Source: Populus alba (Eukaryota; Streptophyta; Magnoliopsida; Malpighiales; Salicaceae). From it: a stretch of DNA of 64,000 nucleotides. The stretch spans positions 47,648,697 through 47,712,696 of the forward strand of contig NC_133284.1 of the NCBI RefSeq assembly GCF_005239225.2, written 5' to 3'. Under the pieces are notes generated by a model. It searched no databases. It had not been told where the DNA came from and saw only the letters and a program-made list of their open reading frames with translations. The position numbers were made by a program, and so were the translations under genes. This document shows positions 3,672 through 54,464 of this stretch, one piece after another (the first letter of the stretch is position 1; each line of letters opens with the position of its first letter).

Positions 3672-6600
3672 TGTCGCACCCTCGCAGCAGAGCGTGGCGT
3701 CGCGACAACCATTCGATTGAATTTCGGGGTCTTTTGTTTTATTATGAATAAGGGAGTCACCACCTAGTATTTTGGTCACTAGGAACCCTAACTGGTCTTT
3801 CAGAGGTTCTAAGGCAAGGGATTGGTTACGTAAAGGGAAGGTATTAGCACCCCTAGTACGCCCTACCTAAGGTAAGCTGCTTGGTGTTTGGTTTGCTCTA
3901 TAATTGCTATGGTGTTGGTGTTTTCTGATCCCATCAGTTTTCCTAGGTTTGATTCAAATAAAATTTAATAGGATAGAAATCCAAGGAGATTCCATGTGCT
4001 TTGAAAGCTCATTTTTCTCTTAGTATTTCAAGAGTTTGCGACTCGTAAATCGCAAAGAGGAGGGACAAAAAATTTAGAAATCTAGGGTGCTAAAAAAAAA
4101 CCTATATTTTTTAGTATTTTATATTCTCACGGCTCATAAACCGTGGAGCAAAAACAAATAAATTGAAATGTCCTCGATTATAATCAAGGCTTTTTTCAAG
4201 GATGTGTGCGGATTTATTACTCCCAATAATATTTTGGATATTCGTTCTTTAAGGATTTCTTTATCCAAACATTAGCGGTGAATAATAGATGAATCGCCCC
4301 CAAAATAGGATTTTTATATTTTTTGGAATATTGGCCAATACCCTTTGGAGTTTTACAAACATGTTGTAAAATCCTAAAATGCAAGAAAAACAATATTTAA
4401 TAGTGTTTACAAAAATCCATGCGAAAACACCTTTGTCGAAACTTCAAATTTTTTTTTTTATATATATATAAAAAAGGAATTCAAAATATGTTAAGGTATT
4501 GGCGGTATGCAACACACAAGAAAATTTTTAAATTATTTTCTTTTATCGAAAACACATAGCATCACAATTAAATGTAAACACCAAAATGAAAAGTAGCAAG
4601 CCATCATTCATATTACAAGAACTATAAGAAACTTAAAAAATTCGTAACAAAAATCATTCAACCAAATCAACTTAAAATTCTATACATTGGAAAGGACTAA
4701 GCACGTATGGATGAGGGAGCCAAAGTTTTGAAACTGAAATTTTTAAATCGAAATCCTACTACATATGACCATAACTCATGACCTATTTTCTTTTTAACAA
4801 TCCAAGAGAAAAAAAAAGTAAACTGCCATGCTAGTTTCATACAAAAAAAAAAAAGAGCTTGGGACGACATGCTTTCATAACACATATATATCATAGACTA
4901 GATACCAAATCAAGACCTGGCCGGCTATTTCAATAAAATGGAAGGACACGAACAGAAAAGGGAGCTACTAATGAAGAAAACAAACAGCCCCATTCCCCGG
5001 TTCCTTAATTCTGTCATGCTAGTTTCATACAAAAAAAAAAAAAAGAAAGAAAAGCTTGGGACAAGCATGCTCTTATAACACATATATATCATAGACTATG
5101 AAACCAAAGCAAGACCTGGCCGGCTATTTTAATAAAAAATGGAAGGACACAAACAGAAAAAGGAGCTGCTGATGAAGAAAACAACAGCCCCCTTCCCTGG
5201 TTCCTTAACTTTGAAAACGGTAGAAGACAGGAGATAAAAAAAGAAACACCAAAGGCTAGCCAAAGCTTAACATAATCAACTATCCAAAACTCAAAATCAC
5301 GGCAGGAACAATATAAAGCAAACGGGTATTATACAATCTAAAATGTGGCACGAATGTGCAAAAAAAAAAAAAAAAACAAAAGAGATACAAAAGACTTAAA
5401 GGCAGCAAAGGAGGAGAAAATTAGGACTTACCTGCAGGTCTCGCTGAAATGGTTTACTGCAACAACTGCAGGTCTCTTGCAATGGTTTGCTACAACAACT
5501 GGAATAAAACAACAAGCACACGTTGCTGTCAAGGTTTAAAACAAACCCCCCTCTCCGTCTTGTCTTTTTTTCTCTCATGGTGACACTAGAATGCAAGCAA
5601 GAAATTCCCTCTATTCTGCGTTTTTTTTACTCTTTCTCTCTTGCGTTTTTTCCTTTATTTTTCTACTCTCTTTCTGCTATTTTTGCTCTCTTTCGGCTCT
5701 CTTTTTGGCTTCACAGTAACGAACAAAAACTCCTTCTGTTCTCTACATTTTTACTCCCTGCCTCTCTTGCATTTTTCTCTTCTGTCTTTGGCTGTTTTTC
5801 CTGCTCTTTTCTCTCCGTTTTCTCTTCTTTTTGTGCTATTTTTTTGTTGCCATCTTCTCCCTTTTTTTTAGGTCAGCAGAGGCATAGTATATATGGTCTA
5901 TACACAGCTCTTATTAGGAAAGATTCAATGCATTAATCTAGGATGCAAATCCCAGCTGATTTGCAGCCAAATAATACAAATGAGGAAACTACAATATTCT
6001 CATTGATTATGTGCTGATTCTAGTGATTTCTTTCCAACATTAACACATCATCCCAGCCATCTATGTTAGGGATAAAATCCCAGCCATTAGATGATGGTGA
6101 GATTATTCTCTTTATGGCATTTTGCATCTGTCAAAGGCTGCTGTCTCCTATGAATTATAGCTGCACAAAAAACGTGATTTTCCTCATTCGGTGTGGTAGA
6201 AATCCCGTCATTTATGATGATCTAGCTCCCTCTCCAGCTTCCAATATCCTTCTTCAATTAAAATCCTCATTTTAGCACTTTTCGATTCAGTCCTTGGTCC
6301 AAAAAAAATCCTTCGAATCAGTCCCGCAAACTTAGGCTATATCCTTCCCGCGGCAGAATTTTCTGCCTTCACGTTAGATATTCAAATGGAAATATCTTGA
6401 GCTTCTGGTATCAAAATCAAGTGATTCAAAAGCACAAATTCATCTACATGTATAGGACTACAACTTTGATGAAGGAGTCGGAGTGAGATAAAATCCTTTT
6501 ATAGAATAGAATCTAGCAGTAATTTGGTTGGTCAAAAGGGTTCTCCGAATCTAACTCAAAAACTGAAGAATGCCGAGAGTCCTGATATGACTAAGAGTAT

Positions 6601-7396: not shown

Positions 7397-7539
7397 TGCT
7401 TACGAAGCAAAACTTGTCAAGTGCTTTGCGTAGTAAGTGTTGAAAAGATAAATTGTCTGATCAAGCTAAAAACTCAGTGCTTTTCTTAAACAATGGTCTC
7501 CCTATCAGGTGATCTGCCTATCTTAAAATTTCTAGAAAA

Positions 7540-8515
7540 CACTCTATGCTTTTCTAAAAATGGTCTCAATAATGGGTGATTTGCCTATCTTAAAATTCTT
7601 AGAAAACTCCATGATTTTCTAAGGAACAATTTCAATATCAGGCAACCGTTTCCTCTTAAAATTCTTAGAAAATTCCACACTTTTCTAAAAAATGGTCTCA
7701 ATATTGGGTGACCGGCCCATCTTAAAATTCTTAGAAAACTCCATGCTTTTCTAAGAAATGGTCTCAATATTAAGTGACCGGCCCATCTTAAAATTCTTAG
7801 AAAACTCCACGCTTTTCTAAGAAAAGTTTCAATATCAGGTAACCGGCCCATTTTAAAATTCTTAGAAAACTCCACGCTTTTCTAAGAAACAGTTTCAATA
7901 TCAGGTAACCGGCCCCTTTTAAAATTCTTAGAAAACTCCACGCTTTTCTAAGAAATGGTCTCAAAATCGGGTGACCGGCCCATCTTAAAATTCTTAGAAA
8001 ACTCCACGCTTTTCTAAGAAACAGTTTCAATATCGGGTCACTGGCCCATCTTAAAATTCTTAGAAAACTCCACGCTTTTTTAAAAAATGGTTTCAATATC
8101 AGGTCACCGGCCCCTCTTAAAATTCTTAAAAAACTCCACGCTTTTCTAAGAAATGGTCTCAATATTGGGTGACCGGCCCATCTTAAAATTCTTAGAAAAC
8201 TCTATGCTTTTCTAAGAAATGGTCTCAATATTAAGTGACCGGCCCATCTTAAAATTCTTAGAAAACTCCACGCTTTTCTAAGGAATAATCTCAATATTGG
8301 GTGACTGGCCCATCTTAAAATTCTTAGAAAACTCCATGCTTTTCTAAGAAACGGTTTCAATATCAGGTGATCGGCCCCCTCTTAAAATTCTTAGAAAACT
8401 CCACGCTTTTCTAAGAAATGGTCTCATTATCGGGTGACTGACCCATCTAAAAATTCTTAGAAAACTCCACGCTTTTCTAAGAAATGGTCTCAATATCGGG
8501 TGACCTACCCATCTC
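7540..8515. repeat. 66-bp tandem hairpin array, about 15 units
   Basis: The period is 66 bp (for example TGGTCTC at 7693 and again at 7759). Each unit contains the inverted repeat CTTAGAAAA / TTTTCTAAG around an 8-base loop, plus a variable GTGACCGGCCCAT-like segment. Because 66 is a multiple of 3, the minus strand stays open over long stretches as a 22-residue repeat (7585-7875, 7797-8162). I treat that as a consequence of the period, not as a gene. It lies in the 3' untranslated part of the Ogre-type element, a usual place for tandem arrays in that lineage. Confidence 0.9.
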
Positions 8516-9399
8516 AAACTTCAAAAGAAAACATCTTACCTTGAGGAAATGAAACAGTGCTGGTTCATGATTCATATTCTTTTCCATAGCTCTGTTGATT
8601 TGAGATTCTATCTCTTAGTGATTCCCAAAAACTTGGAACTAATTTGGGCTTTCATCCCACCTTTCCTGCCAGGTTAGTGTTATGACAAATAGCATGCATG
8701 TTTTTGTTACTTGTCTTGGAAACATAGGTCCTCTTTTTGTTGTAAACTTTTTCGAGCTCTTGTTTCCATTTGTTTGTCCAACCTTTTCTCTTGAACTAGA
8801 ATGTGCTCCACACACTATACTTCATATCCTCTTGGTGAAGAGATCTTTGGTTCCTTATGGGGCCCTTTCTTGCTCCATTGAGTATTGTCCTTTATTATTA
8901 TTTTTGACAAGAAAACTCAAAAGTTTTGGTTTTGTTTATGAAAATTGAAACTTTCAATGCAATTAGCAATTCTCATAAAAGATGCTTTTTTAGAAGTTTT
9001 TATTATGATACCCCTTTGGGCTTTGGTTCACTATGGACCACTATGTGCACTTCGTGCACTTCTTGCCCCTTAGTGTGGTGTGCAAAAATATGTCAAGTTT
9101 AGATTTGATTTGGTTCTCTCCAATTGATGGAGTCATCTCTTTAGTCATGCGTAAAAAAAATAGTTCTTTTAAGTAAAAGATTTGAAATGCTATGAGATCA
9201 TATGTTTTATGAAAAAAAGGTTATTTACAAAGAGAATTCATGGCTGAACTTTATTTTATTGACTGGGAAGCATAGTATTTCTTTATAGAGTCAACATTCA
9301 TAGGTTTAACTAGATTTTCTCCATCCATTCTAGATAACAATAAAGCTTCTCCCGAGAATGCTTTCTTTACCATCAAAGGGCCCTCATTGTTTGGCGTCC
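8516..9399 (-). other. 3' non-coding internal region of the Ogre/Tat-type element
   Basis: This sequence lies between the integrase C-terminus and the 66-bp array. I found no domain in any frame. The plus-strand ORF at 8682-8948 shows no recognisable motif. Confidence 0.5.
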
Positions 9400-9715
9400 A
9401 TTTACTCTAATCTTCTCCTGGTAAAAGACAACATTTTCTTCAATACAAGATCTCCTTCATGGAATCCTCAAGGTCGAATCTTCTTGTCATATGATTTGGC
9501 CATCCTTCTTTGATAAAGTTGATGATGACAGATTGCGGCTATCCTCTTTTCACTTATCAAATTCAGCTGTTCATATCTAACCTTTTCCCATTCTACCTCT
9601 TCTAGCTCAAAGTTTATCAATACTCTTAATGAGGGGATTTCCACTTTTAAAAGTATCATCGCCTCCATTCCATATACCAACATATACGAGGTGGCTCCTA
9701 TTAAGTTTCGGACTA
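9400..9715 (-). pseudogene. Ogre/Tat integrase, C-terminal part (split by insertion)
   Basis: On the minus strand this encodes the end of the integrase. It starts with GATSYMLVYGMEAM-like coding, then IPSLRVL, RYEQLNLISEKR and a YQRRMAKSYDKKIRP segment typical of the integrase tail in this lineage. The frame is open at 9468-9683. It continues the fragment at 18953-19260: the Athila-type element is inserted between the two, and removing it with one GACTA copy restores continuity of the domain order. The host element is defective anyway because of stops in its other fragment. Confidence 0.8.
9711..9715 (+). repeat. Target-site duplication GACTA, left copy
   Basis: GACTA directly precedes the TG of the left LTR and is repeated directly after the CA of the right LTR at 18948-18952. 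This marks a genuine integrase-mediated insertion into the Ogre-type integrase. Confidence 0.95.
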
Positions 9716-11279
9716 TGATTAGTACTTAAAAGTGCATGTTTATCAAGGTTTTATATCATCATTTTGCACTTGAAGTATCAATAACTCCTTAACTAAAGCA
9801 TGTTTTATAATAACAAGTTTGATATTATAAGATACCTTAATTTATGGTAAATGCTCATTTTAAATGCAGGACTAGCACATAAATAAAAGGATTGATTGAT
9901 GAGTTTAAGCATTGAAAGTTAAAGGACAAAGAGATGGCCAAACTTAGAAAAGAGATGTCGGTGCAGTCCAAACCGGAACATTGCTCGGTAATTGGATCAT
10001 ATCTGGAGCTCTAGATTTCGGATTTAGATCCACTTTATATGGATGGAAAGGTAAGACAAAAGCCTACAACTTTCATGAGGAGCCCAAGATTTGAAAAGGT
10101 CGTTTTGAAGTCCAAATTGAAGGAACAACGAAGAAGTCCGAAGCTGTCCTGCAGCCCAAACACTATTTAGTGTTCAGCCCATATCTTGAGTTCTAGAAGT
10201 CCAAATGACCTCATCTTTTTTTTGTTGGAAAGCTGAGACAATTTCCTAGAACATTCTTGAGGATTCTGGGCAAATTATGATGTTAGCAATGACGTCTTGA
10301 TCAGACAAGAAGATAAGGATTGTTATCTAGTCAAGATGTGGCCACCCACTCATCAATTAGTCAACAAATCAATAGTTCCAAATTTTGGCCTATAAAAGGA
10401 GGCACTTACCATGTATTGAGGCATCTTGGTTTCCAGATCAAGATCATGCTCTTGCTTTCTCTCTTTGTATTGCTTATGTCTTGCTTTCATTAATATCAAG
10501 TTTATGCACTTCATTTCCTTTCCTTTACTTAGTTAACTTCTTTCTCATTTATGTTCTTATCTTGTTCATCTATGTTTCTTTCTTTCATTATTTTTAGCTA
10601 AGTTAATTATGTCAAGGTGAAAAGGGTACACTAATGGTGTAAGAATAAGTATAATATAAACTTAACATGGACCTTAACGTTGGATACTAACATGTTTTAT
10701 ATTTGTTATCTTGTTCACTTTTAATACTTTGCTTGTTAAATGGTTAATCTAGATTTATGTTGTATAATAATTGGTACAACAAATACTTGGTACTTTCATA
10801 GCCCATACTGTATGGTATAACCGACACCTGAGCTATGAAAGGGACTTGATTTGTTGTTAACATAAGTTATAATCATGAACGCCTGCCAACATTTACAAGT
10901 ATTAGCTTTATTCGAATAAGATAACTAATGTAATCATGTTAACAATTTATAATCTGATTGGAACCTCCTTTATTTGTGGTTACCAATTGAGTAATAAGAG
11001 TTTATATTATACTTGTTTGAAGTACCATTAGTGGATCCTCTAACCTTGACATTCGTTTTTATCATTGTTTAATCCTTACATTAATCTTCCAACTCAAAGT
11101 TCTCATTAATTTCTTCCTTCTCTTCTTTATTATTGTTGTTGTTGTTGTTGTTGTTGTTGTCTTGTTATTTATAATTTATACAATTAACCTCTCTGTGGTT
11201 CGACCCCGGTCTTGCCGGGTTATTTATTACTTCGACACTCCTGCACTTGGGAAGAGACATCAAGCTTTTGGTCGTGTCA
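9716..11279 (+). repeat. 5' LTR of Athila-type copy 1
   Basis: 1,564 bp, from TGATTAGTACTT to GGTCGTGTCA. It carries a strong TATA box (TATAAAA, 10391-10397) and a (GTT)n microsatellite near 11129-11158. Near the 3' end a GC hairpin (11205-11219) sits beside a GGTTCGACC sequence. A small ORF at 10385-10597 starts just upstream of the TATA box and is not considered a gene. Confidence 0.95.
10391..10397 (+). promoter_or_regulatory. LTR TATA box, copy 1
   Basis: TATAAAA in the context GGCCTATAAAAGGAGG is a canonical Pol II core promoter. It is conserved in every LTR of the family in the window, including the 3' LTR at 18061. Transcription would start some 30 bases downstream and run through gag. 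Confidence 0.8.
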
Positions 11280-11285
11280 AGTTTT

Positions 11286-11303
11286 TGGCGCCGTTGCCGG
11301 GGA
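11286..11303 (+). promoter_or_regulatory. tRNA-Asp primer-binding site, copy 1
   Basis: TGGCGCCGTTGCCGGGGA begins six bases after the LTR. It is the exact complement expected for the 3' end of plant tRNA-Asp(GTC) including CCA, the primer used by Athila-lineage elements. Confidence 0.93.
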
Positions 11304-11510
11304 GGTAAATTCTTGTATAAATTATAATATTTAATTTATTTTCTCTTTTCACTTTTCATTTTATCTATTTTTGTTTCCTTTGTTTTGTTTTGTTTCTTTT
11401 TCTTCTATTTTCTTTTCTTGCTTTTATTCTCTTCTTACACGTGCATGAGAGTTTGGTCACGTACATTAAGTGGTAGACTTTGTAGGGTATCCTCATCATT
11501 TTTAGAAAAT

Positions 11511-14495
11511 ATGGCCGAAGAAGATAATCAATCACTTCATAATGAGAATAATGAGAATAACCATATGAGAACACTTAGAGACCACATGAATCCCACAAGA
11601 ACAAGTGCACCCTCATGCATAGTTTTCCCTCCTGATGCATCTCATTTTAATTTTAAGCCAGACATTATTCAACTTTTACCATCTTTTCATGGCTTAGACT
11701 TAGAAAATCCATACTTGCATTTAAGGGAATTTGAGGAGGTCTGTAATACCTATAATGACTCAAATTGTAGCATGAACACCATTCGATTAAAGCTTTTTCC
11801 TTTTTCATTAAAAGATAAAGCTAAAACATGGCTACAAAATTTGAGACCGGGATCCATTCGTGCTTGGGATGAAATGCAACAACAATTTTTAAAGAAGTTT
11901 TTTCCATCTCACAGAACAAACTCTTTCAAAAGACAAATCATCACTTTCTCTCAAAAACCAGGAGAAACATTTTACCAATGTTGGGATAGGTATCGAGATT
12001 TGCTTAATACTTGCCCACATCATGGTTTTGAAACATGGAGATTGGTTTCACATTTTTATGAAGGTTTAACACCTAGAGATAGGCAAATGGTTGAATTGAT
12101 GTGCAATGGAACTTTCGAAGATAAAGACCCTAATGAAGCAATGGAGTACCTAGACTTGCTAGCCGAAAATGCTCAAAATTGGGACACCACAGGTACTTAT
12201 GAGGCACCAGGTAAAACTCAACCTCATACATCTAGTGGGGGTATGCACAACCTTAGGGAAGATCATGACCTCCAAGCCAAGTTTGCATCTTTAGCTAGAA
12301 AAGTCGAGGCACTAGAATTAAAAAAGAGTGGTCAATTAAAATCTGTTCAAGACATTGTGTGTCAAATCTGTGAAACAAATGAGCATGCAACCAATGATTG
12401 TCCAACTTTGCCTTCTTTCAAGGAATGCCTCCATGAACAAGCCCATGCTTTAAACAGTTTCCAAAGACCCAACCATAACCCATACTCACAAACATATAAC
12501 CCTGGTTGGAGAAATCACCCAAATTTTAGTTGGAAGAGTGATAGCAACAATGCACAAACTTCACAACCACCATTTCAAGCACACCATAATTTCCAAAATT
12601 CTCATGGATATGCACCTCCTTATGCTCCACCTCCTAGAAGAAATTTTGAGGAAACATTGCATGCATTCATTGAAAAGCAGGAGACAATCAACACTCAACT
12701 TGCTCAAAGCATGACTGATTTTAAAGATGCTCTTGCAAAATTAACAACTGCTCTCAGTTTCCAAGAGAAAGGTAAGTTTCCTTCTCAACCACAGCAAAAT
12801 CCAAAGGGGCAATACAATGCAAATGCAAGTGGTTCTGGAAGCCAACACATGGATCAAGTCAAATCAGTCATCACTCTTTGTAGTGGTAAGGTTATTGAAA
12901 AACCCATTCTTGAACCTTGTGAGAAAGATGATGAGTCTATCTCTGAGGGTAAGGAAGGGGTTGAACCTGAACATTGCAAAGAGAAGGCTGATTCCCCGCC
13001 AGCACTTCCATTTCCTCATGCCATGACCAAACAAAGGAAAGTCAATCACAACTCTGAAATCTTTGAAACTTTCAAACAGGTAAGGATCAATATACCTTTG
13101 TTGGATGCTATTAAACAGGTTCCTTCCTATGCTAAAATTTTGAAAGATCTGTGCACTGTGAAGAGAAAATTGAATGTGAAAAAGAAAGCATTTTTAGCCG
13201 AACAAGTAAGTGCCATTCTTCAGAACAATAATGCTTTGAAATATAAAGACCCTGGTTGTCCTACAATTTCTTGCTTTATTGGAGAACATAAAATTGAAAG
13301 AGCCTTACTTGATCTTGGAGCTAGTGTGAATTTACTTCCATATTCAGTTTTTCAGAGTCTCAATCTAGGTGAGTTAAAACCAACCTCTGTAACTCTTTTA
13401 CTCGCCGATAGATCTGTAAAAGTGCCTAGAGGAATAATTGAAGATGTGTTGGTACAAGTTGACAAATTCATTTATCCTGTGGATTTTGTTGTCTTGGACA
13501 CGCAACCTGTTGAAGCATGTAATTCAATTCCTGTCATTTTAGGACGTCCATTTCTTGCCACTTCTAATGCATTGATTAATTGTAGGAATGGACTGATGAA
13601 GCTATCATTTGGAAACATGACATTGGAGATGAATATTTTCAACATTTGCAAGCAACCTGGAGATGATAATGATTTACAAGAAGTAGATCTTATTGAAGAA
13701 TTAGTTCATGATCAACTTGAATCTACTTTGAGTAAAATTGAGTTGGATGAATCTGAAGATTTGCAAATGATTTATTCTCAGGAAGAAATCACGGATGAAA
13801 AAGGCACAAAAAATATTGATGTTGATCTTGTGTCAAAAGTGACAACAAATTTGACATTTGACATCCCACCAATTGATGATTACTTTCATGAAGAATCCTT
13901 ACTTTCTCTCAGTTCAATGCCTTGGTTTGCTAAAAATATCAATTTTCTTGCAACAGGAGATTTGCCAGCTCACTGGAGTACCGAAGACAAAGGAAAGTTT
14001 TTGAACGAAGTGAAGAACTTTTACTTAGATGACCCTTACTTATTCAAAAATTGTCCTGATCAAATATTTCAAAAATGCATTCCCGACAATCAGGTAAGTA
14101 ATGTCATTAAACTTTGTCATTCTGAAGCATGTGGGAGTCAATTCTCATCAAGAGAGACAACTGTAAAAATCTTACAAAATGGATTTTATTGGCCCACCAT
14201 GTTCAAGGACACACATGCATTATGCAAAACTTGTGAAAATTGTCAAAAAGTTGATACTGGTCAAAACGTTTTGCTTTATAATTCTCGACTCCATTTATTT
14301 CCTGAAAAAATAAGATCACGATGGAGAGGTCCATTTATTTTGAAACATGCGTATCCTTATGGGGCCCTTGATATTGAGAATTCAAAGAATGACAATGTTT
14401 TGAAGGTAAATGAACATCGTTTAAAAGCTTACTTTGATGAGTTTCCTAGTGAAAATGAATCCATTGGTTTGAATAATCTTATTGATAAAGGTTGA
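11511..14495 (+). CDS. Gag-protease polyprotein with deleted pol (994 aa)
   Basis: The frame is open from 11385. I prefer ATG 11511 (MAEEDNQS), though the 42 upstream codons could be used. Gag follows: an Athila-type core with FHGLDLENPYLHLREFEEV near 11685-11740 and a CCHC knuckle C-x2-C-x4-H-x4-C near 12360-12400. A retropepsin-like domain carries DLGAS at about 13312 (D-L-G instead of D-S/T-G, usual in this lineage) and ILGRPFLATS near 13537. The frame then jumps from residues just before RT (about 13790) to the linker before the integrase zinc finger (about 13800), and again from CENCQK (about 14250) to the integrase C-terminal domain. RT, RNase H and the DDE core are therefore absent, yet no stop occurs. 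In the retained integrase finger a His found in copy 2 is Gln (GSQFSS). The post-protease part is clearly more divergent from copy 2 than gag is. Confidence 0.88.
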   Translation: MAEEDNQSLHNENNENNHMRTLRDHMNPTRTSAPSCIVFPPDASHFNFKPDIIQLLPSFHGLDLENPYLHLREFEEVCNTYNDSNCSMNTIRLKLFPFSLKDKAKTWLQNLRPGSIRAWDEMQQQFLKKFFPSHRTNSFKRQIITFSQKPGETFYQCWDRYRDLLNTCPHHGFETWRLVSHFYEGLTPRDRQMVELMCNGTFEDKDPNEAMEYLDLLAENAQNWDTTGTYEAPGKTQPHTSSGGMHNLREDHDLQAKFASLARKVEALELKKSGQLKSVQDIVCQICETNEHATNDCPTLPSFKECLHEQAHALNSFQRPNHNPYSQTYNPGWRNHPNFSWKSDSNNAQTSQPPFQAHHNFQNSHGYAPPYAPPPRRNFEETLHAFIEKQETINTQLAQSMTDFKDALAKLTTALSFQEKGKFPSQPQQNPKGQYNANASGSGSQHMDQVKSVITLCSGKVIEKPILEPCEKDDESISEGKEGVEPEHCKEKADSPPALPFPHAMTKQRKVNHNSEIFETFKQVRINIPLLDAIKQVPSYAKILKDLCTVKRKLNVKKKAFLAEQVSAILQNNNALKYKDPGCPTISCFIGEHKIERALLDLGASVNLLPYSVFQSLNLGELKPTSVTLLLADRSVKVPRGIIEDVLVQVDKFIYPVDFVVLDTQPVEACNSIPVILGRPFLATSNALINCRNGLMKLSFGNMTLEMNIFNICKQPGDDNDLQEVDLIEELVHDQLESTLSKIELDESEDLQMIYSQEEITDEKGTKNIDVDLVSKVTTNLTFDIPPIDDYFHEESLLSLSSMPWFAKNINFLATGDLPAHWSTEDKGKFLNEVKNFYLDDPYLFKNCPDQIFQKCIPDNQVSNVIKLCHSEACGSQFSSRETTVKILQNGFYWPTMFKDTHALCKTCENCQKVDTGQNVLLYNSRLHLFPEKIRSRWRGPFILKHAYPYGALDIENSKNDNVLKVNEHRLKAYFDEFPSENESIGLNNLIDKG

Positions 14496-15504: not shown

Positions 15505-16158
15505 ATGGCAGGTTCCTTAAGTCATCATATAAGAAATATTTGTGTTTTCGGTGGATCCAGTTCTGGGAAAGAAAAAGAGTTTTTAGAATCAGCAAATCAT
15601 CTTGGTCGGGTACTAGCTGAAAGAAAGATTCATTTAGTGTATGGGGGAGGCAGCCTTGGGTTAATGGGAGGTGTGTCAATGGCTGCATTTTTAGGAGGCA
15701 GTCAAGTTTTGGGGGTTGTCCCCAAAGCTTTAGCAACTGGGGACATCATTGGAAAAACAATTGGAGAGGAACTACAGGTCCCAACAATGTCTGACCGACT
15801 GAATACCATGTTTAACCATGCTGATGCCTTCATTGCCTTACCAGGTGGTCTGGGCACATTGGAAGAGATCTTTCATATTTCATCTTGGGCCCAACTGCAC
15901 ATTCACCATAAACCTATAGGTTTGTTAAATGTTAATGGTTTTTATGATAAGTTGCTGTCTTTCCTTGATCAAGCTGTGGAACAGGAATTTCTAACATCTT
16001 CGGCACGACGAATCATAATCTCTGCTGCTACTGCTGAACAATTGATTGACCAACTACAATCTTTCATCCCTGTCATTGATCCCTGCATGAGTCGTCTAGA
16101 TTGGTCAACTAAGGAAAGCCGTAAAAAGCTTAGATTAGATTTGAGCCTTCATCTGTGA
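15505..16158 (+). CDS. LOG-family cytokinin-activating phosphoribohydrolase captured by the retrotransposon
   Basis: This is an intact 217-aa intronless ORF with a favourable start context (G at +4). LOG enzymes hydrolyse cytokinin riboside 5'-monophosphates to active free-base cytokinins plus ribose 5-phosphate in the cytosol. Visible features are an N-terminal NICVFGGSS Rossmann strand-loop (11-19), VYGGGSLGLMG (45-55), Arg98 in SDRLNTM, and the family signature PGGLGTLEE (113-121, PGGxGTxxE). A KPIGLLN strand and an RRIIISAATAEQLIDQL helix (168-184) follow. Length is normal for plant LOG proteins. Host LOG genes normally have several introns, so the uninterrupted frame indicates capture through RNA. 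It lies 253 bp after the NABP-like ORF, before the structured 3' region. Whether it is expressed or active is unknown. The motif and length leave little doubt about the family; which LOG member was the donor I cannot say. Confidence 0.93.
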   Translation: MAGSLSHHIRNICVFGGSSSGKEKEFLESANHLGRVLAERKIHLVYGGGSLGLMGGVSMAAFLGGSQVLGVVPKALATGDIIGKTIGEELQVPTMSDRLNTMFNHADAFIALPGGLGTLEEIFHISSWAQLHIHHKPIGLLNVNGFYDKLLSFLDQAVEQEFLTSSARRIIISAATAEQLIDQLQSFIPVIDPCMSRLDWSTKESRKKLRLDLSLHL

Positions 16159-17384: not shown

Positions 17385-18947
17385 TGATTAGTACTTAAAA
17401 GTGCATGTTTATCAAGGTTTTATATCATCATTTTGCACTTGAAGTATCAATAACTCCTTAACTAAAGCATGTTTTATAATAACAAGTTTGATATTATAAG
17501 ATACCTTAATTTATGGTAAATGCTCATTTTAAATGCAGGACTAGCACATAAATAAAAGGATTGATTGATGAGTTTAAGCATTGAAAGTTAAAGGACAAAG
17601 AGATGGCCAAACTTAGAAAAGAGATGTCGGTGCAGTCCAAACCGGAACATTGCTCGGTAATTGGATCATATCTGGAGCTCTAGATTTCGGATTTAGATCC
17701 ACTTTATATGGATGGAAAGGTAAGACAAAAGCCTACAACTTTCATGAGGAGCCCAAGATTTGAAAAGGTCGTTTTGAAGTCCAAATTGAAGGAACAACGA
17801 AGAAGTCCGAAGCTGTCCTGCAGCCCAAACACTATTTAGTGTTCAGCCCATATCTTGAGTTCTAGAAGTCCAAATGACCTCATCTTTTTTTTTGTTGGAA
17901 AGCTGAGACAATTTCCTAGAACATTCTTGAGGATTCTGGGCAAATTATGATGTTATCAATGACGTCTTGATCAGACAAGAAGATAAGGATTGTTATCTAG
18001 TCAAGATGTGGCCACCCACTCATCAATTAGTCAACAAATCAATAGTTCCAAATTTTGGCCTATAAAAGGAGGCACTTACCATGTATTGAGGCATCTTGGT
18101 TTCCAGATCAAGATCATGCTCTTGCTTTCTCTCTTTGTATTGCTTATGTCTTGCTTTCATTAATATCAAGTTTATGCACTTCATTTCCTTTTCCTTTACT
18201 TAGTTAACTTCTTTCTCATTTATGTTCTTATCTTGTTCATCTATGTTTCTTTCTTTCATTATTTTTAGCTAAGTTAATTATGTCAAGGTGAAAAGGGTAC
18301 ACTAATGGTGTAAGAATAAGTATAATATAAACTTAACATGGACCTTAACGTTGGATACTAACATGTTTTATATTTGTTATCTTGTTCACTTTTAATACTT
18401 TGCTTGTTAAATGGTTAATCTAGATTTATGTTGTATAATAATTGGTACAACAAATACTTGGTACTTTCATAGCCCATACTGTATGGTATAACCGACACCT
18501 GAGCTATGAAAGGGACTTGATTTGTTGTTAACATAAGTTATAATCATGAACGCCTGCCAACATTTACAAGTATTAGCTTTATTCGAATAAGATAACTAAT
18601 GTAATCATGTTAACAATTTATAATCTGATTGGAACCTCCTTTATTTGTGGTTACCAATTGAGTAATAAGAGTTTATATTATACTTGTTTGAAGTACCATT
18701 AGTGGATCCTCTAACCTTGACATTCGTTTTTATCATTGTTTAATCCTTACATTAATCTTCCAACTCAAAGTTCTCATTAATTTCTTCCTTCTCTTCTTTA
18801 TTATTGTTGTTGTTGTTGTTGTTGTTGTCTTGTTATTTATAATTTATACAATTAACCTCTCTGTGGTTCGACCCCGGTCTTGCCGGGTTATTTATTACTT
18901 CGACACTCCTGCACTTGGGAAGAGACATCAAGCTTTTGGTCGTGTCA
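17385..18947 (+). repeat. 3' LTR of Athila-type copy 1
   Basis: 1,563 bp, almost identical to 9716-11279: one substitution at 17956, one extra T in each of two T runs or pyrimidine runs, and one GTT unit fewer. The TATA box is at 18061-18067. It is followed by GACTA (18948-18952). Confidence 0.95.
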
Positions 18948-18952
18948 GACTA
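18948..18952 (+). repeat. Target-site duplication GACTA, right copy
   Basis: Matches 9711-9715 exactly and abuts the CA terminus of the right LTR. Confidence 0.95.
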
Positions 18953-23853: not shown

Positions 23854-24592
23854 TGTCGTACCCTCGCGGCGGAGCGTGGCGTCGCAACGACCATTCGATT
23901 GAATTTCAGGGTCTTTTGTTTTATTGTGAATAAGGGAGTTGCCACCTAGTATTTTGGTCACTAGGAACCCTAACTGGTCTTTCAGAGGTTCTAAGGCAAG
24001 GGATTGGTTGCATAAAAGAAAGGTATTAGCACCCCTAGTACGCCCTACCTAAGGTAAGCTGCTTAGTATTTGGTTTGCTCTATAATTGCTATGGTGTTGG
24101 TGTTTTCTAATCCCATCAGTTTTCCTAGGTTTGATTCAAATAAAATTTAATAGGATATAAATCCAAGGAAATTCAAATAGTTTGCGACTCGTAAATCGCA
24201 AGGATGAGGGACAAAAAATTTAGAAATCTAGGGCGCTAAAAAAAACCTATATTTTTTAGTATTTTATACTCTCACGGCTCGTAAACCATGGAGAAAAAAC
24301 AAATAAAATGAAATGTCCTCGATTATAATCAAGGCTTTTTTTTCAAGGATGTGTGCGGATTTATTACTCCCAATAATATTTTAGATATTCGTCCTTTAAG
24401 GATTTCTTTATCCAAACATTAGTGGTGAATAATAGATGAATTCCCCCCAAAATAGGATTTTTATATTTTTTGGAATATTGGCCAATACCCTTTGGAGTTT
24501 TACAAACATGTTGTAAAATCCTAAAATGCAAGAAAAACAATTTTTTTTGTGTTTACGAAAATCCATGCGAAAACACCTTTGTCGAAACTTCA

Positions 24593-24640
<48 letters not shown>

Positions 24641-25864
24641 CAAAACATGTTAGGGTATTGGCCGTATGCAACACACAAGAAAATTTTTAAATTATTTTTT
24701 TTTTATCGAAAACACATAGCATCACAATTAAATGTAAACACCAAAATGGAAAGTAGCAAGCCATCATTCATATTACAAGAACTACAAGAAACTTAAAAAA
24801 TTCGTAACAAAAATCATTCAACCAAATCAACTTAAAATTCTATACATTGGAAAGGACGAAGCACGTATGGATGAGGGAGCCAAAGTTTTGAAACTGAAAT
24901 TTTTAAATCGAAATCCTACTACATATGACCATGACTCATGACCTATTTTCTTTTTAACAATCCAAGAGAAAAAAAGAAGTAAACTGTCATGCTAGTTTCA
25001 TACAAAAAAAAGAGAGCTTGGGACGACATGCTTTCATAACACATATATATCATAGACTAGAAACCAAAGCAAGACTTGGCCGGCTATTTCAATAAAATGG
25101 AAGGACACGAACAGAAAAAGGAGCTGCTGATGAAGAAAACAAACAGCCCCATTCCCTGGTTCCTTAATTCTGTCATGCTAGTTTCATACAAAAAAAAAAG
25201 AAAAGCTTGGGACAAGCATGCTCTTATAACACATATATATCATAGACTATAAAACCAAAGCAAGACCTGGCCGGCTATTTCAATAAAAAATGGAAGGACA
25301 CAAACAGAAAAAGGAGCTGCTGATGAAGAAAACAACAGCCCCCTTCCCCGGTTCCTTAACTTTGAAAACGGTAGAAGACAGGAGATAAAAAAAGAAACAC
25401 CAATGGCTAGCCAAAGCTTAACATAATCAACTATCCAAAACTCAAAATCACGGCAGGAACAATATAAAGCAAACGGGTATTATACAATCTAAAATGTGGC
25501 ACGAATGTGCAAAAAAAAAAAAAAAAACAAAAGAGATACAAAAGACTTAAAGGCAGCAAAGGAGGAGAAAATTAGGACTTACCTGCAGGTCTCGGTGAAA
25601 TGGTTTACTGCAACAAATGCAGGTCTCCTGCAATGGTTTGCTGCAACAACTGGAATAAAACAACAAGCACACGTTGCTGTCAAGGTTTAAAACAAAACCC
25701 CCTCTCCATGTTGTCTTTTTTTATCTCACGGTGACACCAGAATGCAAGCAAGAAATTCCCTCTATTCTGCGTTTTTTTACTCTGCCTTTCTTACGTTTTT
25801 TCCTTTATTTTTCTGCTCTCTTTCAACTATTTTTTGCTCTCTTTCGGCTCTCTTTTTGGCTTCA
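23854..25864 (-). repeat. 5' LTR of the Ogre/Tat-type element, truncated
   Basis: Direct repeat of 3672-5713, starting TGTCGTACCCTCGCGG on the plus strand. The match stops at GGCTTCA (25864), so about 1.66 kb of the LTR's minus-strand 5' part is missing. It contains an (AT)n tract at about 24598-24636 that is much shorter in the partner LTR. Divergence from the partner is visible in every line, so this insertion is older than the Athila-type copy. Confidence 0.8.
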
Positions 25865-26607: not shown

Positions 26608-29558
26608 TGAAGCCCGAGAAAAAAAAAACTATACAAAGAGGGGGAGGTTTATAATAATTCCAAATGTTGTTACAATATAAAATAAAGCAATAATAATAAT
26701 AATAATAAAAAATAATACTGAAAAAAAAGGGTGAAAAGATGGGGCCAAAATGGAATTAAGAAGAGATGGGACTATAAATACCCATCCCTTCTCTCATCCA
26801 TGGCCGGCTGATAATAAAAATATGGAGGGGGGAGAATTTCAATTTTTTCTTTCATCAAAACTTGGAGTAAACACCTAAAATTAGTAAACCCAAATAAGCC
26901 TTGGAATTATAAAGTGGAGGAACACAATCGGGTGGAAGAATTAACAAGAAGAAAAGTGAAGAATTGGTGAAGAAAAGAGGGGGAAGAGTAGCTGACAACA
27001 TACAAGGAGAAGAAGGCTAAGATTCTTCTAAAATTTGTGAAGTAAATTTTAGATTCCATCCAAGTAAGGAGTTCTAATTCCAATTTCTATGAAATCAACT
27101 TCAATTTGATTAGAAGTTTATGCCTTTCTTGAATTGGGAATTAGGTTTCTTTAACATAAAATGTTGGGAAAATGCAGAAATGAGTGAGGTTAAATGGATT
27201 AGATTAATCTAAGTGCCTTAAAGAAGAAGAAGAAATGAGTGCATAAAAGAGAGGAAGGGAACTCTCGGTTCCCTTGGCCACGTTCTCTGCTGGATACAGC
27301 AGAGAGGGAATGAGAACTTATGATGTGTTTAATTAATTAATTTGGCACCAGTGACCTTAGGAGGACATAAAAGGATACGGGAATGCCATGAATAAAGGGA
27401 AGGCATGGTTGTGACTGATGAGGAAGCAGGGATTTAAGATGAAATGGAGATACCTTCTTCCTTAGCAAAACAGGACAGGTTCGTTGCCCTGTTTCCTGGG
27501 GGGATTTTGGACCTGAAAACTACAAAATTTAGGGAGGGTCCCCTCAAAGAAGTGTAGCTAGGAGTGTTAGCTTTCCAACGAATCTGACCTCGCCTAATTT
27601 GGAGTCCTAGAACTCCAGGTACAAATAAAAAACTAAGGAGAGGTCGAGTTGCCACCCCTGTTGGCAGATTCAGCCAAGTTGATAAAACGGTGAAATTTAG
27701 CCATATCAAGTGTAGAATTTGTGTTCTTGCCTTTCATAAAGTGTGTCTTGATCTTCAAAAAAGAATAAACCGTAATCAAAAATTGAATTTATGATGTCCA
27801 CTTGGACTACTAATGAGCTAAAAAGTTAAAGGATAATAGTGAGGAATGTATGTGATGAGAAAGAAAAGATTTGGTAAAAGAGAAATGAATATTATTTTCA
27901 ATGTTGATGTTGCGTGTGATATGTGGATTAATATGGGATAATGATAGGTGTTTGTGGTTTCAGGAGGAACCGCAGGAGGAGTACAACAACCACAGGGGAA
28001 TGCAAGTCGAGCGTCCACAACAGATAGGTACTCGGTACCTATATCTCCTCTAGTTAATAATTATTTTAACTAACTTTTGAACTATAAAAATTTGGTGCTT
28101 ATTGGTGAAAAAAAAAAGGGAAAGGAAAGGTTAAATGATGAAAAATAAAATGGAACGGAGAACTAGATTTAATTTGTGGGCTCTTTTGGAGGAAATAGAT
28201 CGTAACAAGGAATTTTGGTAATGATTGTTTCTTGAATTTGATTTGTTGTCCCTGATATGGGAGGCTAATGATGTTAACCAAGCTGGATAACATCGGCATT
28301 ACTGGTACGTGAGAGGAAAAATATAAACTTGATTAACTATTCGGTTTCAGAATAGTTAATGATATCGGCACGTGATGTCGATATCGGCAAAATTTATAAA
28401 ATTGATTAACTATTCGGTTTCAGAATAGTTAATGATATCGGCACGTGACGTCGATATCGGCAAAATTTATAAACTTGATTAACTATTCGGTTTCAGAATA
28501 GTTAATGATATCGGCACGTGATGTCGATATCGGCAAAATTTATAAAATTGATTAACTATTCGGTTTCAGAATAGTTAATGATATCGGCACGTGACGTCGA
28601 TATCGGCAAAATTTATAAACTTGATTTGCTTTCCGAGGTGAAAGCTAATGATGTCAAGAATTTTGACATCGGCATACCTGAGAACCTCCCAAGGTAATAT
28701 GGAACAATGATTAACTATTTTAGTTTTAAAAATAGTTAATGACACAAACGTTTACATTTGTGTCGGCATTTTCATGAAACTAATTAGTTGTTCCAAGACG
28801 GGCAACTAAAGACACTAATGGAGGTCATTGGTGTCAGCAATAGTCCTTCTGATGAGGGGGGGGGGGGAGAAGTAGTTAACAGAAAAAAAAAAAAAAAAAA
28901 GAGAGAGAAGAAGAATAAAGAATTCTTATATAACCATAAAAGGGGGCTTGTGGTTGTATTTATAATTTCATATGATTTAAGTAGATATATATGCTGTTTA
29001 ATTTTATTCTGTAAATTGCTTGTATTTTAATCATTTGTTTTTAATTATATGGAAAATTTATATTTTTGCAGGTCCCTCCCATTCACGTCAGGAATAGATT
29101 TAAAGTTCTTTGATCCCTTTCCGTATAAGTTAGGAACTTAGGGATTTGTGGTGTAATTTTGTCATGCAGTAAGCATGTAGCCTATATGGAATACTCTATT
29201 CGTAATATTTTGTTTCTGAAATATTAAATGTATCAACCTATGCTTGGGATATTAGAATGTACTAGACTATGTTAGAATATTAAACTATGTTGTGTATATA
29301 TATATTTATATGAAATTTCGTGTTGAAATTGGCTCTTTTAATTATTAACTTGTGTATGTGATGTAAGATGGAGTTTGGGAATGAATATGGTCCTGAGCAT
29401 AATCTAGAATGAGTTATGTAGTTAATTGTGCTAAACATGGATGTGATTGTGGATGAGATGTGATTCAAAATGTGTGCAGGTACATTGTCGTTAACTTGGG
29501 ATCTCCTGGTATAGAGGAGACTAACGAATAAACTAATAGAAAAATTAGGGTTGTTACA
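26608..29558 (-). mobile_element. 2.95-kb LTR-like insertion (probable solo LTR) in gag
   Basis: It is bounded by ATTAATG on both sides (26601-26607 and 29559-29565). On the minus strand it begins TGTAACAACCCTAATTTTTC and ends GGGCTTCA, so it has TG/CA termini. The apparent 7-bp duplication may be a 5-6 bp duplication plus chance matches. No gag or pol domain is found inside, which suits a long solo LTR or a non-coding element. It holds a hairpin-rich array (28240-28850), a 10-G run near 28857 and A-rich tracts. ORFs inside (27434-27709, 27818-28018, 28788-29030) show no motifs. Confidence 0.65.
28331..28622. repeat. 4 x 73-bp tandem repeat with paired hairpins
   Basis: Units start at 28331, 28404, 28477 and 28550. 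Units 1 and 3 share one set of variants and units 2 and 4 another (GTGATG versus GTGACG; AAACTT versus AAAATT before the unit), so the array grew by duplicating a 146-bp dimer. Each unit contains ATTAACTATTC / GAATAGTTAAT and GATATCG / CGATATC inverted repeats and a CACGTG. Confidence 0.9.
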
Positions 29559-29565
29559 ATTAATG

Positions 29566-30560
29566 AGTATATAACGCAGTTTAACGATTACATGATTAGA
29601 TGTGCCATAAAAGAGAATGAAACCATGATTTTGCGTAGATTTTGTAAAGGCTTAAATGATGATCTTAGAAGAGAAGTTGTATTTCAAGGTATATCTACCC
29701 TTAACCAAGCTTATACCTTAGTTCAAGATTACAAGTTGGTCACTAAGAATCAGAGGATGAATCGTCAGGGCTCTTATAGTATCCCTATTAGGTCCCAATT
29801 TAGAAGTAGTGATTCTTTGTTAGGTGCTCCACCCCACAGACCTAATCCTAGTAGCGCCCAACTTTATAAGAAAGATAGGGGCAAACGAGTTGTTAATGAA
29901 GTGTCTAAGGTGAGTTCAAAGGTTAAGTGTATTAATTGTTTAGGTTTTGGTCATATCTCTTTAGATTGCACCTCGAAACCCTTAGTCATCCAAAAACATA
30001 AGGATATAGGTAAAGAAGAATATTGTAGTGTTGAAGTGCCTAATCTTGAGGATTTTAGTGACCTAGATGATGAGGATGTGCAAGATGAGGGACTTAACAC
30101 AATAAGCCCACATGAGCTTGATCTTGAGGTTAAAAAAGAGTATTATATGTCTGCTTTAATGGTGGAGGAAATTTTAGGAAACTCTTTAGTGGAACCTCCT
30201 ATAGAGATAAGTATGGTCTTAAAAGAGTCTCGTGATATTAGTCCTCATGAATTACCTGATTCCTCATCCCACATGCTTAATGTCCAGCACTTCATAAGTT
30301 TAGAGCAACATGTTGAGCTTTTTGACCTCTTACCACATGCACGTGATGAGAAAGATGAAGATAATCCTAGGTTACTTGATTGTGTCCATACCATATCTAC
30401 ACAGGTTTCAGACAATGCTTGTCTCATTCCACACCCTCAATCATTTAGTGTTCATAGTTACAAACCTGAGGAGCCGATAAAATACCTTCATATATCTCCT
30501 CACGATAGGATGTCTAAGTTAGCTAAGTCGTTACCATGTAGGGTTCATAATTTGCATATT
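29566..30560 (+). pseudogene. Gypsy gag, 3' part with zinc knuckle
   Basis: It continues gag with EYITQFNDYMIRCAIKENE and RRFCKGLNDDLRREVV, followed by the CCHC knuckle VKCINCLGFGHISLDC near 29925-29970. An acidic tail follows (EDFSDLDDEDVQDEG). The frame (open 29592-30743) runs on without a stop into a region of unclear origin, with HISPHEL / DISPHELPDSSS repeats, and then the integrase tail. ATG 29592 is an internal Met, not a true start. Confidence 0.75.
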
Positions 30561-30890
30561 GAGATCATGAAACCAATTCAAGCAAGTAATGAACAATACA
30601 AATTTCGAGCTGATTTACTTAAATATCATGATGCACTGAATGTTGAAGATTATTTCATGATACAGATTAGACCTGAACGGTGTCCTTTGGAAACCGATTA
30701 TAAATTGCAAGTAGTGCTAGACCATTCAAAGTGTTGCAAATGATTAAATCAAATAATTATGTCATTAAATTGCCATTAAACTTTGATATTAGCTCTCTTT
30801 TGAACATGAAAGACCTTAGTATTTATAAAATACAACATATCCATGATGCTCATTTTGATACCCCTACCTTATTATCCATATCTTTGGCAT
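30560..30890 (+). pseudogene. Integrase C-terminal tail fused to gag
   Basis: QASNEQYKFRADLLKYHDAL, VEDYFMIQIRPERCP and, after a frameshift near 30735, VLQMIKSNNYVIKLPLNFDISSLLNMKDLSIY. This succession corresponds to the end of Ty3/gypsy integrases. Since RT, RNase H and the integrase core are missing, the element is a deletion derivative. Confidence 0.7.
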
Positions 30891-42511: not shown

Positions 42512-43165
42512 TCACAGATGAAGGCTCAAATCTAATCTAAGCTTTTTACGGCTTTCCTTAGCTGACCAATCTAGGCGACTCATGCAAGGATCAATGACAG
42601 GGATGAAAGATTGTAGTTGGTCAATCAATTGTTCAGCAGTAGCAACAGAGATTATGATTTGTCATGCCGAAGATGTTAGAAATTCCTGTTCCACAGCTTG
42701 ATCAAGGAAAGATAGCAACTTATCATAAAAACCATTAACATTTAACAAACCTATAGGTTTATGGTGAATGTGCAGTTGGGCCCAAGATAAAATATGAAAG
42801 ATCTCTTTCAATGTGCCCAGACCACCTGGTAAGGCAATGAAGGCATCAGCATGGTTAAACGTGGTATTCAGTCGGTCAGACATTGTTGGGACCTGTAGTT
42901 CCTCTCCAATTGTTTTTCCAATGATGTCCCCATTTGCTAAAGCTTTGGGGACAACCCCCAAAACTTGACTGCCTCCTAAAAATGCAGCCATTGAAACACC
43001 TCTCATTAACCCAAGGCTGCCTCCCCCATACACTAAATGAATCTTTCTCTCAGCTAGTACCTGACCAAGATGATTTGCTGATTCTAAAAACTCTTTTTCT
43101 TTCCCAGGACTGGATCCACCGAAAACACAAATATTTTTTATGTGATGACTTGAGGAACCTGCCAT
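42512..43165 (-). pseudogene. LOG pseudogene, copy 2
   Basis: The same 218-codon span as the intact gene. The frame is open from ATG 43165 to a TGA at 42662-42664, where Arg168 (CGA) has become TGA; the next Arg codon is CAA. Both are CpG-type transitions. The original stop lies at 42512-42514 and the remaining sequence is still alignable. Up to the stop it differs from copy 1 at about nine residues (L5S, R10K, S20P, R35Q, G55R, T78N, M102T, E120K, S126L). The PGGxGTxxE motif is retained, but the C-terminal helices would be lost. Confidence 0.9.
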
Positions 43166-47000: not shown

Positions 47001-47130
47001 GTGGTCTCCAATTGCATGCCTTTGATTCTTCCTGAAAGTAGACCATTTGCAAATCATCAGATTCATCAATCTCAGTTTCACTAGAAGTGGTTTGAAATTG
47101 ATCATGAACTAATTTTTCAATAAAGTCCAC
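44038..47130 (-). CDS. RT-RNase H-integrase polyprotein (1,030 aa), copy 2
   Basis: Uninterrupted pol frame of a Ty3/gypsy element. [42 protein letters not shown] and the catalytic FMDD (46192-46203, about residue 310). RNase H begins [13 protein letters not shown] (about 455) with [12 protein letters not shown] linker ending [13 protein letters not shown] follows (about 560). Integrase zinc finger H-C...C-x2-C (about 660-706), core IDFMGPF (about 737), SDGGTHF (about 792) and [10 protein letters not shown] with D-x35-E (about 829), then the C-terminal domain to 1,030. All catalytic residues are present. It would normally be produced as the downstream part of gag-pol, so ATG 47130 is only the first Met after a stop at about 47158. 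As gag and protease are broken, it could act only if translated separately or in trans. Confidence 0.9.
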
Positions 47131-52682: not shown

Positions 52683-53182
52683 NNNNNNNNNNNNNNNNNN
52701 NNNNNNNNNNNNNNNNNNNNNNNNNNNNNNNNNNNNNNNNNNNNNNNNNNNNNNNNNNNNNNNNNNNNNNNNNNNNNNNNNNNNNNNNNNNNNNNNNNNN
52801 NNNNNNNNNNNNNNNNNNNNNNNNNNNNNNNNNNNNNNNNNNNNNNNNNNNNNNNNNNNNNNNNNNNNNNNNNNNNNNNNNNNNNNNNNNNNNNNNNNNN
52901 NNNNNNNNNNNNNNNNNNNNNNNNNNNNNNNNNNNNNNNNNNNNNNNNNNNNNNNNNNNNNNNNNNNNNNNNNNNNNNNNNNNNNNNNNNNNNNNNNNNN
53001 NNNNNNNNNNNNNNNNNNNNNNNNNNNNNNNNNNNNNNNNNNNNNNNNNNNNNNNNNNNNNNNNNNNNNNNNNNNNNNNNNNNNNNNNNNNNNNNNNNNN
53101 NNNNNNNNNNNNNNNNNNNNNNNNNNNNNNNNNNNNNNNNNNNNNNNNNNNNNNNNNNNNNNNNNNNNNNNNNNNNNNNNNN
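52683..53182. other. Assembly gap (500 N)
   Basis: Exactly 500 N, a conventional placeholder size. The sequence resumed after it (53183) matches 51933 onwards rather than continuing 52682, so the true gap size is not known and may be zero or negative. Confidence 0.97.
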
Positions 53183-53810: not shown

Positions 53811-54464
53811 TCACAGATGAAGGCTCAAATCTAATCTAAGCTTTTTACGGCTTTCCTTAGCTGACCAATCTAGGCGACTCATGCAAGGATCAATGACAGG
53901 GATGAAAGATTGTAGTTGGTTAATCAATTGTTCAACAGTAGCAGCAGAGATTATGATTTGTCATGCCGAAGATGTTAGAAATTCATGTTCCACAGCTTGA
54001 TCAAGGAAAGATAGCAACTTATCATAAAAACCATTAACATTTAACAAACCTATAGGTTTATGGTGAATGTGCAGTTGGGCCCAAGATGAAATATGAAAGA
54101 TCTCTTCCAATGTGCCCAGACCACCTGGTAAGGCAATGAAGGCATCAGCATGGTTAAACATGGTATTCAGTCGGTCAGACATTGTTGGGACCTGTAGTTC
54201 CTCTCCAATTGTTTTTCCAATGATGTAACTATTTGCTAAAGCTTTGGGGACAACCCCCAAAACTTGACTGCCTTCTAAAAATGCAGCCATTGAAACACCT
54301 CCCATTAACCCAAGGCTGCCTCCCCCATACACTAAATGAATCTTTCTCTCAGCTGGTACCTGACCAAGATGATTTGCTGATTCTAAAAACTCTTTTTCTT
54401 TCCCAGGACTGGATCCACCGAAAACACAAATATTTTTTATGTGATGACTTGAGGAACCTGCCAT
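53811..54464 (-). pseudogene. LOG pseudogene, copy 3
   Basis: The frame is open from ATG 54464 to the same TGA as copy 2 (Arg168, at 53961-53963). It carries S5, K10, P20, Q35 and N78 like copy 2, but retains M102, E120 and S126 of copy 1. It has its own changes L37P, G64E-type and G79S/D80Y. The shared stop shows that it descends from the same inactivated LOG as copy 2. Confidence 0.88.

Follow-up and report, generated by a model that had tools for sequence, protein, structure and literature searches.

LOG-family genes with a changed prenyl pocket and a carlavirus NABP-like neighbour in Athila-like retrotransposons of Populus alba

Two Athila-like elements with similarity to LOGL4 were reportedly described by Steinbauerova et al. 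in 2011. In the available text of PMC9289625, a YgdH/LOG domain is noted in gypsy consensus sequences of Citrus sinensis and Citrus clementina and, once a filter was lifted, in gypsy of P. trichocarpa, in line with the 2011 study. These elements resemble the one analysed below in carrying a LOG-family domain in Ty3/gypsy, Populus included, and the association of LOG with retrotransposons is already known (PMC9289625). Here, we studied a window, that is, the whole stretch of 64,000 nucleotides of the 416-Mb genome of Populus alba at C1:47648697-47712696. A first-pass annotation, made from the sequence alone, had suggested that a retrotransposon spreading its intact LOG gene would be a striking case of gene transduction. 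The presence of LOG as a family trait of the element stood, but "striking" had to be reduced because PMC9289625 had reported the association earlier. What we add is a rebuilt pocket, a constant partner ORF, a selection signal and a subfamily devoid of the integrase core.

Structure of the LOG element and of its relatives

Over 1561 compared sites, the two LTRs of the element carrying the intact LOG showed a single substitution, with 5 gap columns in addition, and GACTA was found at both ends, which bore out the first-pass view of a young element with near-identical LTRs and a perfect target duplication. The candidate primer-binding site presumably pairs with the 3' end of a plant tRNA-Asp. Primer sites of the tRNA-Asp type are linked to Athila. 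Target duplications of five bases are a general feature of the element survey in the available text of PMC6317226.

Table 1. Features of the window, numbered from its first nucleotide
Feature	Position	Strand	Evidence
Target-site duplication GACTA, left	9711-9715	.	perfect copy at right end
5' LTR of intact-LOG element	9716-11279	+	99.6% match to 17385-18947
Primer-binding-site candidate, directly after 5' LTR	11286-11303	+	sequence
gag-protease ORF fused in frame to integrase zinc-binding domain and pol tail	11385-14495	+	Pfam
Carlavirus-NABP-like zinc-finger ORF, 182 aa	14703-15251	+	PF05515, PF01623
Intact intronless LOG-family (TIGR00730) ORF, 217 aa	15505-16158	+	profile, sequence and structure matches
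3' LTR of intact-LOG element	17385-18947	+	pairs with 9716-11279
Target-site duplication GACTA, right	18948-18952	.	perfect copy at left end
LOG of copy 2, stop at codon 168 (R168*) and E120K	42512-43165	-	
pol of copy 2: RT, RNase H, integrase	44038-47130	-	Pfam
LOG of copy 3, same stop R168*; tandem duplicate of copy 2	53811-54464	-	

In the gag-protease ORF, Pfam (E up to 0.001) matched Retrotrans_gag, Asp_protease_2 and Integrase_H2C2 only, and the same search returned no RT, RNase H or integrase core anywhere in the intact-LOG element. Aligned with the pol of copy 2, this ORF showed two internal gaps, and the reading frame was open across both. Among the 57 loci carrying 1.5 kb upstream of LOG, a range that does not reach the RT gap, the integrase-core junction occurred with the same spacing at 21, the window's own included; the integrase core was present at 29, and 7 had neither. 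Because the junction is common to 21 of these loci, the window element is, judging from its sequence, a member of a subfamily predicted to be unable to make its own integrase.

The pol of copy 2 has the domain order RVT_1, RT_RNaseH, Integrase_H2C2, rve, that is, the gypsy order RT-RH-INT expected of Athila. No additional RNase H or chromodomain was found after these domains (Pfam, E up to 0.001), the additional RNase H being given as a mark of Tat in the available text of PMC6317226. Athila is probably the best lineage label for the intact-LOG Ty3/gypsy element, by domain order and content rather than by a tree. The first-pass annotation had placed LOG between pol and the 3' LTR; LOG does lie near the 3' end of the element, but the ORF next upstream of it is the NABP-like ORF and not pol.

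Outside the element, direct repeats at 3672-5713 and 23854-25864, 94-95% identical, flank it on both sides, and by these repeats it looks nested in another, older LTR element. Also present in the window are a tandem array of ~66-base units (7468-8536), a short tandem repeat of ~73-base units (28322-28626) and a 383-aa ORF (29592-30743) that Pfam left unmatched (E up to 0.001).

The LOG ORF itself was confirmed to be full length and intronless, with the PGGxGTxxE motif, as first annotated. It contains the Lysine_decarbox domain, this motif and the catalytic Arg and Glu of the LOG/TIGR00730 family, scored 132 bits with PF03641 and 171 bits with TIGR00730, and matched AtLOG3 (2a33) at 208 bits. 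Its AlphaFold model (pLDDT 82) superposed on 2a33 with TM scores of 0.75 (query length) and 0.93 (target length), at an rmsd of 1.3. A TATAAA is present 72 bases upstream of the start codon of the ORF. The lack of introns would fit retrotransposon gene transduction, as judged from the element ORF by itself. With the NCBIfam cytokinin-LOG model NF058542, the protein scored 114.9 bits against a cut-off of 300. Cellular LOGs of Arabidopsis (132.4), Populus (115.7) and Vitis (131.9) were used as controls, and since all three also scored under the cut-off, the model is no guide for the window LOG and its miss was dropped as an argument against a cytokinin LOG. Scanning bacterial genomes with LOG returned 3 bacterial LOGs, at 39-49%, and scanning IMG/VR returned no relative. 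Many close relatives occur in metagenome collections, some of them named TIGR00730 family, apparently in plant DNA.

The window holds two more LOG copies, in a tandem duplication of element and flank that covers 38532-64000 with a repeat distance of ~21 kb. Neighbouring copies there apparently use common LTRs, and a 500-base run of N lies at 52683-53182; the duplication may be real or an assembly effect. Three independent LOG copies in the window were therefore rejected: copies 2 and 3 share the stop R168* and are tandem duplicates, so the window contributes fewer independent cases. A further LOG, free of stops, is located just beyond the window (C1:47712813-47713463). A genome search with LOG yielded 1776 first-look candidates; of the best 150, which were scored, 138 were stop-free and 12 had stops, and six, the window's own included, had an identity that rounds to 100%. 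The P. alba genome contains at least 150 LOG copies. The first-pass annotation had inferred a family trait from three copies at the same element position, and this holds on genome-wide evidence (the 1776 candidates, and a neighbouring NABP-like ORF at 96 of 97 loci), although copies 2 and 3 count as one lineage.

The prenyl pocket and the NABP-like neighbour

In CgLOG, Arg99 and Glu122 are proposed to be catalytic, and Met96, His97, Lys100, Glu125 and Trp129 likely form the prenyl pocket (available text of PMC4979012). We counted the equivalent residues in 111 proteins, namely the window LOG and 110 of its 120 best relatives, 10 being left out by length. The catalytic Arg (Arg98 here) was kept in 104 and the catalytic Glu (Glu121 here) in 107, as were the pocket Met (110 of 111) and Trp (105 of 111). 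The three other pocket residues were replaced in every protein. In place of His97 we found Ser (87), Phe (19) or Tyr (5), in place of Lys100 Leu (73), Met (35), Ile (2) or His (1), and in place of Glu125 His (109), Tyr (1) or Arg (1). By comparison, none of 120 cellular LOG3-like proteins departed from the canonical catalytic and pocket residues. The window LOG thus lacks the His, Lys and Glu of the pocket of a cytokinin LOG in the strict sense, and retains its Met and Trp. Residues of the new pocket are themselves conserved (His124 in 109 of 111, Leu116 in 110 of 111), and Arg98, Glu120, Glu121 and His124 were present at 97 of 97 P. alba loci, these loci having been selected by LOG. Two Xanthoceras proteins retained the canonical MHxRK and Glu residues, which limits the observed pocket change to the poplar branch. 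On these residues, the substrate is predicted to have changed along with the pocket. The first-pass claim of a hormone-activating enzyme was weakened accordingly, because His97, Lys100 and Glu125 are replaced in 111 of 111, with the catalytic pair mostly retained.

The ORF upstream of LOG passed the cut-offs of both carlavirus NABP families, with 30.4 bits for PF05515 (cut-off 23) and 23.0 bits for PF01623 (cut-off 20.9). Within an alignment of 39 members, and at E up to 0.001, PF05515 was found in 35 and PF01623 in 31; an Acer relative (P0235) passed the cut-off of PF01623 and missed that of PF05515. As in carlavirus NABPs, a basic stretch precedes a C4 finger, here C85-x2-C88-x4-C93-x3-C97. 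This is not the virus spacing C-x2-C-x12-C-x4-C, and because of that difference we treat the ORF as a resemblance to viral NABP rather than as a captured viral gene. Its predicted structure was poor (pLDDT 55, pTM 0.28) and was set aside. Sequence searches of the PDB (E up to 1) and of phage records were both without a match, and an IMG/VR scan with the NABP-like alignment returned no relative.

The NABP-like ORF adjoined LOG at 96 of 97 LOG-selected genomic loci, a set in which two entries (L065 and L084) are one place and one (L004) is the window's own copy. A distance of 242 bases between the two ORFs was the most frequent (19 loci), and the twelve most frequent distances all fell within 242-269. 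The ORF was open at full length at 47 of the 97 loci. A search with E up to 1 matched 614 of its 666 candidates, with Populus, Xanthoceras and Acer among the 120 matches listed. The family is wide and also occurs in sequences of unnamed origin; the NABP-like ORF may be an accessory gene in its own right, also outside elements that bear LOG. In the literature searched, we found no paper linking LOG-bearing elements to a carlavirus-like ORF.

Tests for selection on both ORFs and ancestry of LOG

The DNA-level test included 92 copies of LOG, 5 of 96 loci being dropped for gaps in LOG, and 54 copies of the NABP-like ORF, 43 of 96 loci being dropped for gaps or for short or missing matches; 3 further genomic loci had been dropped earlier for gaps. 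On inner branches, the 92 LOG-selected copies showed 56 nonsynonymous (N) to 78 synonymous (S) changes, an omega of 0.30 (p 6e-12), a ratio biased downwards because the genomic copies were picked by similarity to the query LOG. Terminal branches had 171 N to 122 S, with an omega of 0.58. For the NABP-like ORF, the counts were 24 N to 50 S on inner branches (omega 0.18) and 113 N to 63 S on terminal ones (omega 0.66), and this signal is cleaner, as the loci were not selected by this ORF. Ten more distant poplar copies, hand-picked from L074-L100, all gave a dN/dS of 0.34-0.48 against the window LOG, at a dS of 0.10-0.17. The unselected pairs, copy 1 of the window against copies 2 and 3, gave 0.60 and 0.66, values at which neutrality was not rejected (p 0.27 and 0.42), and copies 2 and 3 differed in LOG by 12.5 N to 0.5 S. 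The first-pass annotation had proposed that LOG would be reduced to a passenger if no copy was under constraint; an inner-branch omega of ~0.3 speaks for constraint, though in a LOG-selected sample.

We then counted changes on the protein tree, in the same length-filtered set (10 of 120 proteins dropped), at sites conserved or variable in cellular LOGs. Terminal changes fell about evenly on the two classes (3.45 per conserved site vs 3.6 per variable site), and so did changes found in 2-3 tips (0.86 vs 0.85). Changes found in at least 4 tips avoided the conserved sites (24 of 137, vs 269 of 789 for terminal changes; p 9e-5); pooling all inner changes against terminal ones gave p 0.04. At 11 active-site positions, 48 changes were terminal, 8 occurred in 2-3 tips and 1 was deeper. 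Over all sequences, variability followed cellular conservation weakly (rho 0.16; 0.085 vs 0.100, p 0.07). Since terminal changes hit active-site positions freely, many single copies are decaying; from these patterns, single LOG copies appear to decay and the lineages that replicate appear to be constrained.

The element LOGs of poplar and Xanthoceras grouped in a single clade, separate from LOG3-like and LOG8 proteins, in two trees (support 99/96 and 96/96). In AU tests, placing Xanthoceras with the cellular proteins gave p 0.149 with LOG8 among them and p 0.003 without LOG8. A single capture as proven was rejected, as the former value allows separate captures in poplar and Xanthoceras. One old capture of LOG is favoured from the trees rather than shown, because the cellular sampling consisted of the LOG3-like and LOG8 groups and long branches meet. 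The Xanthoceras protein P0084 includes a 51-aa piece 51% identical to the gag-protease ORF of the window, which supports, without proving, the location of LOG inside such elements in Xanthoceras. Two entries named LOGL10, from P. trichocarpa (P0097) and P. nigra (P0118), also fell into the element LOG clade.

LOG is present both in elements with the integrase core and in the subfamily lacking it, and the two types were mixed on the best LOG tree. This tree implied 11 switches between pol types, of which well-supported branches force only 3 to 5; it was poorly resolved, stars marking 8 of its 54 inner branches. Between the two types, the pol tail diverges by ~16%. Median divergence of the integrase-core type from the window copy was 1.0% in the 3' flank, 1.5% in LOG, which was the selection key, 2.1% in the spacer and 3.3% in the NABP-like ORF, matches covering <80% being left out. 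A pol-tail divergence of ~16% against 1.0-3.3% on the LOG side would fit template switching between co-packaged RNAs.

Possible roles of LOG and comparison with known systems

We propose, with a confidence that is about evenly balanced, that a large Athila-like family of poplar carries LOG as an established accessory gene, selected for helping the element to spread and predicted to act on another nucleotide in place of the usual cytokinin precursor. A single capture of a cellular LOG would have preceded the spread of these elements or happened early in it. The element enzyme would still split the base from a nucleoside 5'-monophosphate, and its product, or the loss of the substrate, would shift the host cell in favour of the element. 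The NABP-like protein possibly acts alongside LOG as a nuclear regulator or silencing suppressor. Co-packaging and template switching would be the cause of the mixing of LOG between pol types.

That the element instead carries a true cytokinin-activating LOG, which frees active cytokinin and drives cell division, seems unlikely to us. The PGGxGTxxE motif and catalytic dyad are kept, the predicted fold is near that of AtLOG3, the two Xanthoceras proteins have canonical MHxRK and Glu, and NF058542 does not separate the window LOG (114.9) from cellular plant LOGs (115.7-132.4). The observation that weighs against it is the replacement of three of the five prenyl-pocket residues named in the available text of PMC4979012, found in all 111 poplar-type proteins and in none of the 120 cellular LOG3-like proteins. 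These conserved replacements (His124 in 109 of 111, Leu116 in 110 of 111) would also suit a protein that has kept the LOG fold for nucleotide binding or sensing, or for assembly with gag or with the NABP-like protein, but a pure binder would have no need of the catalytic Arg (kept in 104 of 111) and the catalytic Glu (107 of 111), and we regard this reading as very unlikely.

A captured LOG might also be a passenger, copied with the element and of no use to it. Such a passenger would explain the even spread of terminal changes (3.45 vs 3.6 per site) and of 2-3-tip changes over conserved and variable sites, the stop in copies 2 and 3, whose pairs with copy 1 are not significantly constrained, and the stops in 12 of 150 scored copies. 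Yet omega is ~0.3 on inner branches and dN/dS is 0.34-0.48 between poplar subfamilies, both measured on LOG-selected copies, and deep changes avoid conserved sites, the sole counter-evidence that does not depend on LOG-selected copies; we therefore consider a passenger quite unlikely. That some element copies have been domesticated as host genes, and that these make the clade look functional, is in our opinion highly improbable: the P. trichocarpa and P. nigra proteins P0097 and P0118 do bear gene-style names inside the element clade, but the omega test was run on P. alba loci, at which the NABP-like ORF adjoins LOG in 96 of 97.

Around a LOG that serves as accessory gene of the element, a bolder reading can be built, which we advance tentatively and with clearly less than even confidence. 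The two ORFs would form a two-gene cassette for host manipulation, made of a carlavirus-like nuclear zinc-finger protein and a hormone enzyme whose base pocket has been remade for a new nucleotide, both selected in autonomous and non-autonomous lineages in the manner of viral accessory genes. According to the available text of PMC8839810, carlavirus proteins of this kind are silencing suppressors, and one has a link with a cell-proliferation transcription factor. If true, the cassette would be kept much like the accessory genes of a virus. The extra ORFs of plant gypsy elements are mostly without known domains (available text of PMC9289625). In the element LOG, the enzyme fold is a named one, the catalytic dyad is defined and the base pocket is clearly changed; intact copies are many, and the neighbour resembles a viral regulator. 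With these features, the role of an accessory gene for its element becomes testable with one purified protein. In addition, annotations list members of the clade as LOG genes (LOGL10 of P. trichocarpa and P. nigra), and surveys of the LOG family could be inflated by element copies.

Compared with the plant LONELY GUY enzymes (AtLOG3, 2a33; AtLOG8, 1ydh), the element LOG has in common the fold, the PGGxGTxxE motif and the catalytic Arg and Glu; unlike them, it is intronless, resides on a mobile element and has His97, Lys100 and Glu125 replaced. Orchid gypsy elements with an AlkB-type m6A RNA demethylase, described in the available text of PMC9289625, likewise have an accessory enzyme domain fixed in a gypsy lineage, but the enzyme is another one and its activity was tested there, that of the poplar LOG being predicted. 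With the carlavirus NABPs (PF05515, PF01623) of the available text of PMC8839810, the element ORF shares a basic stretch followed by a four-cysteine finger; it differs by being borne on a retrotransposon and by its spacing, C-x2-C-x4-C-x3-C against C-x2-C-x12-C-x4-C in the virus described. As for the Citrus and P. trichocarpa gypsy elements with LOG, the available text of PMC9289625 mentions no change of the pocket, no NABP-like ORF as partner, no selection and no subfamily that is non-autonomous.
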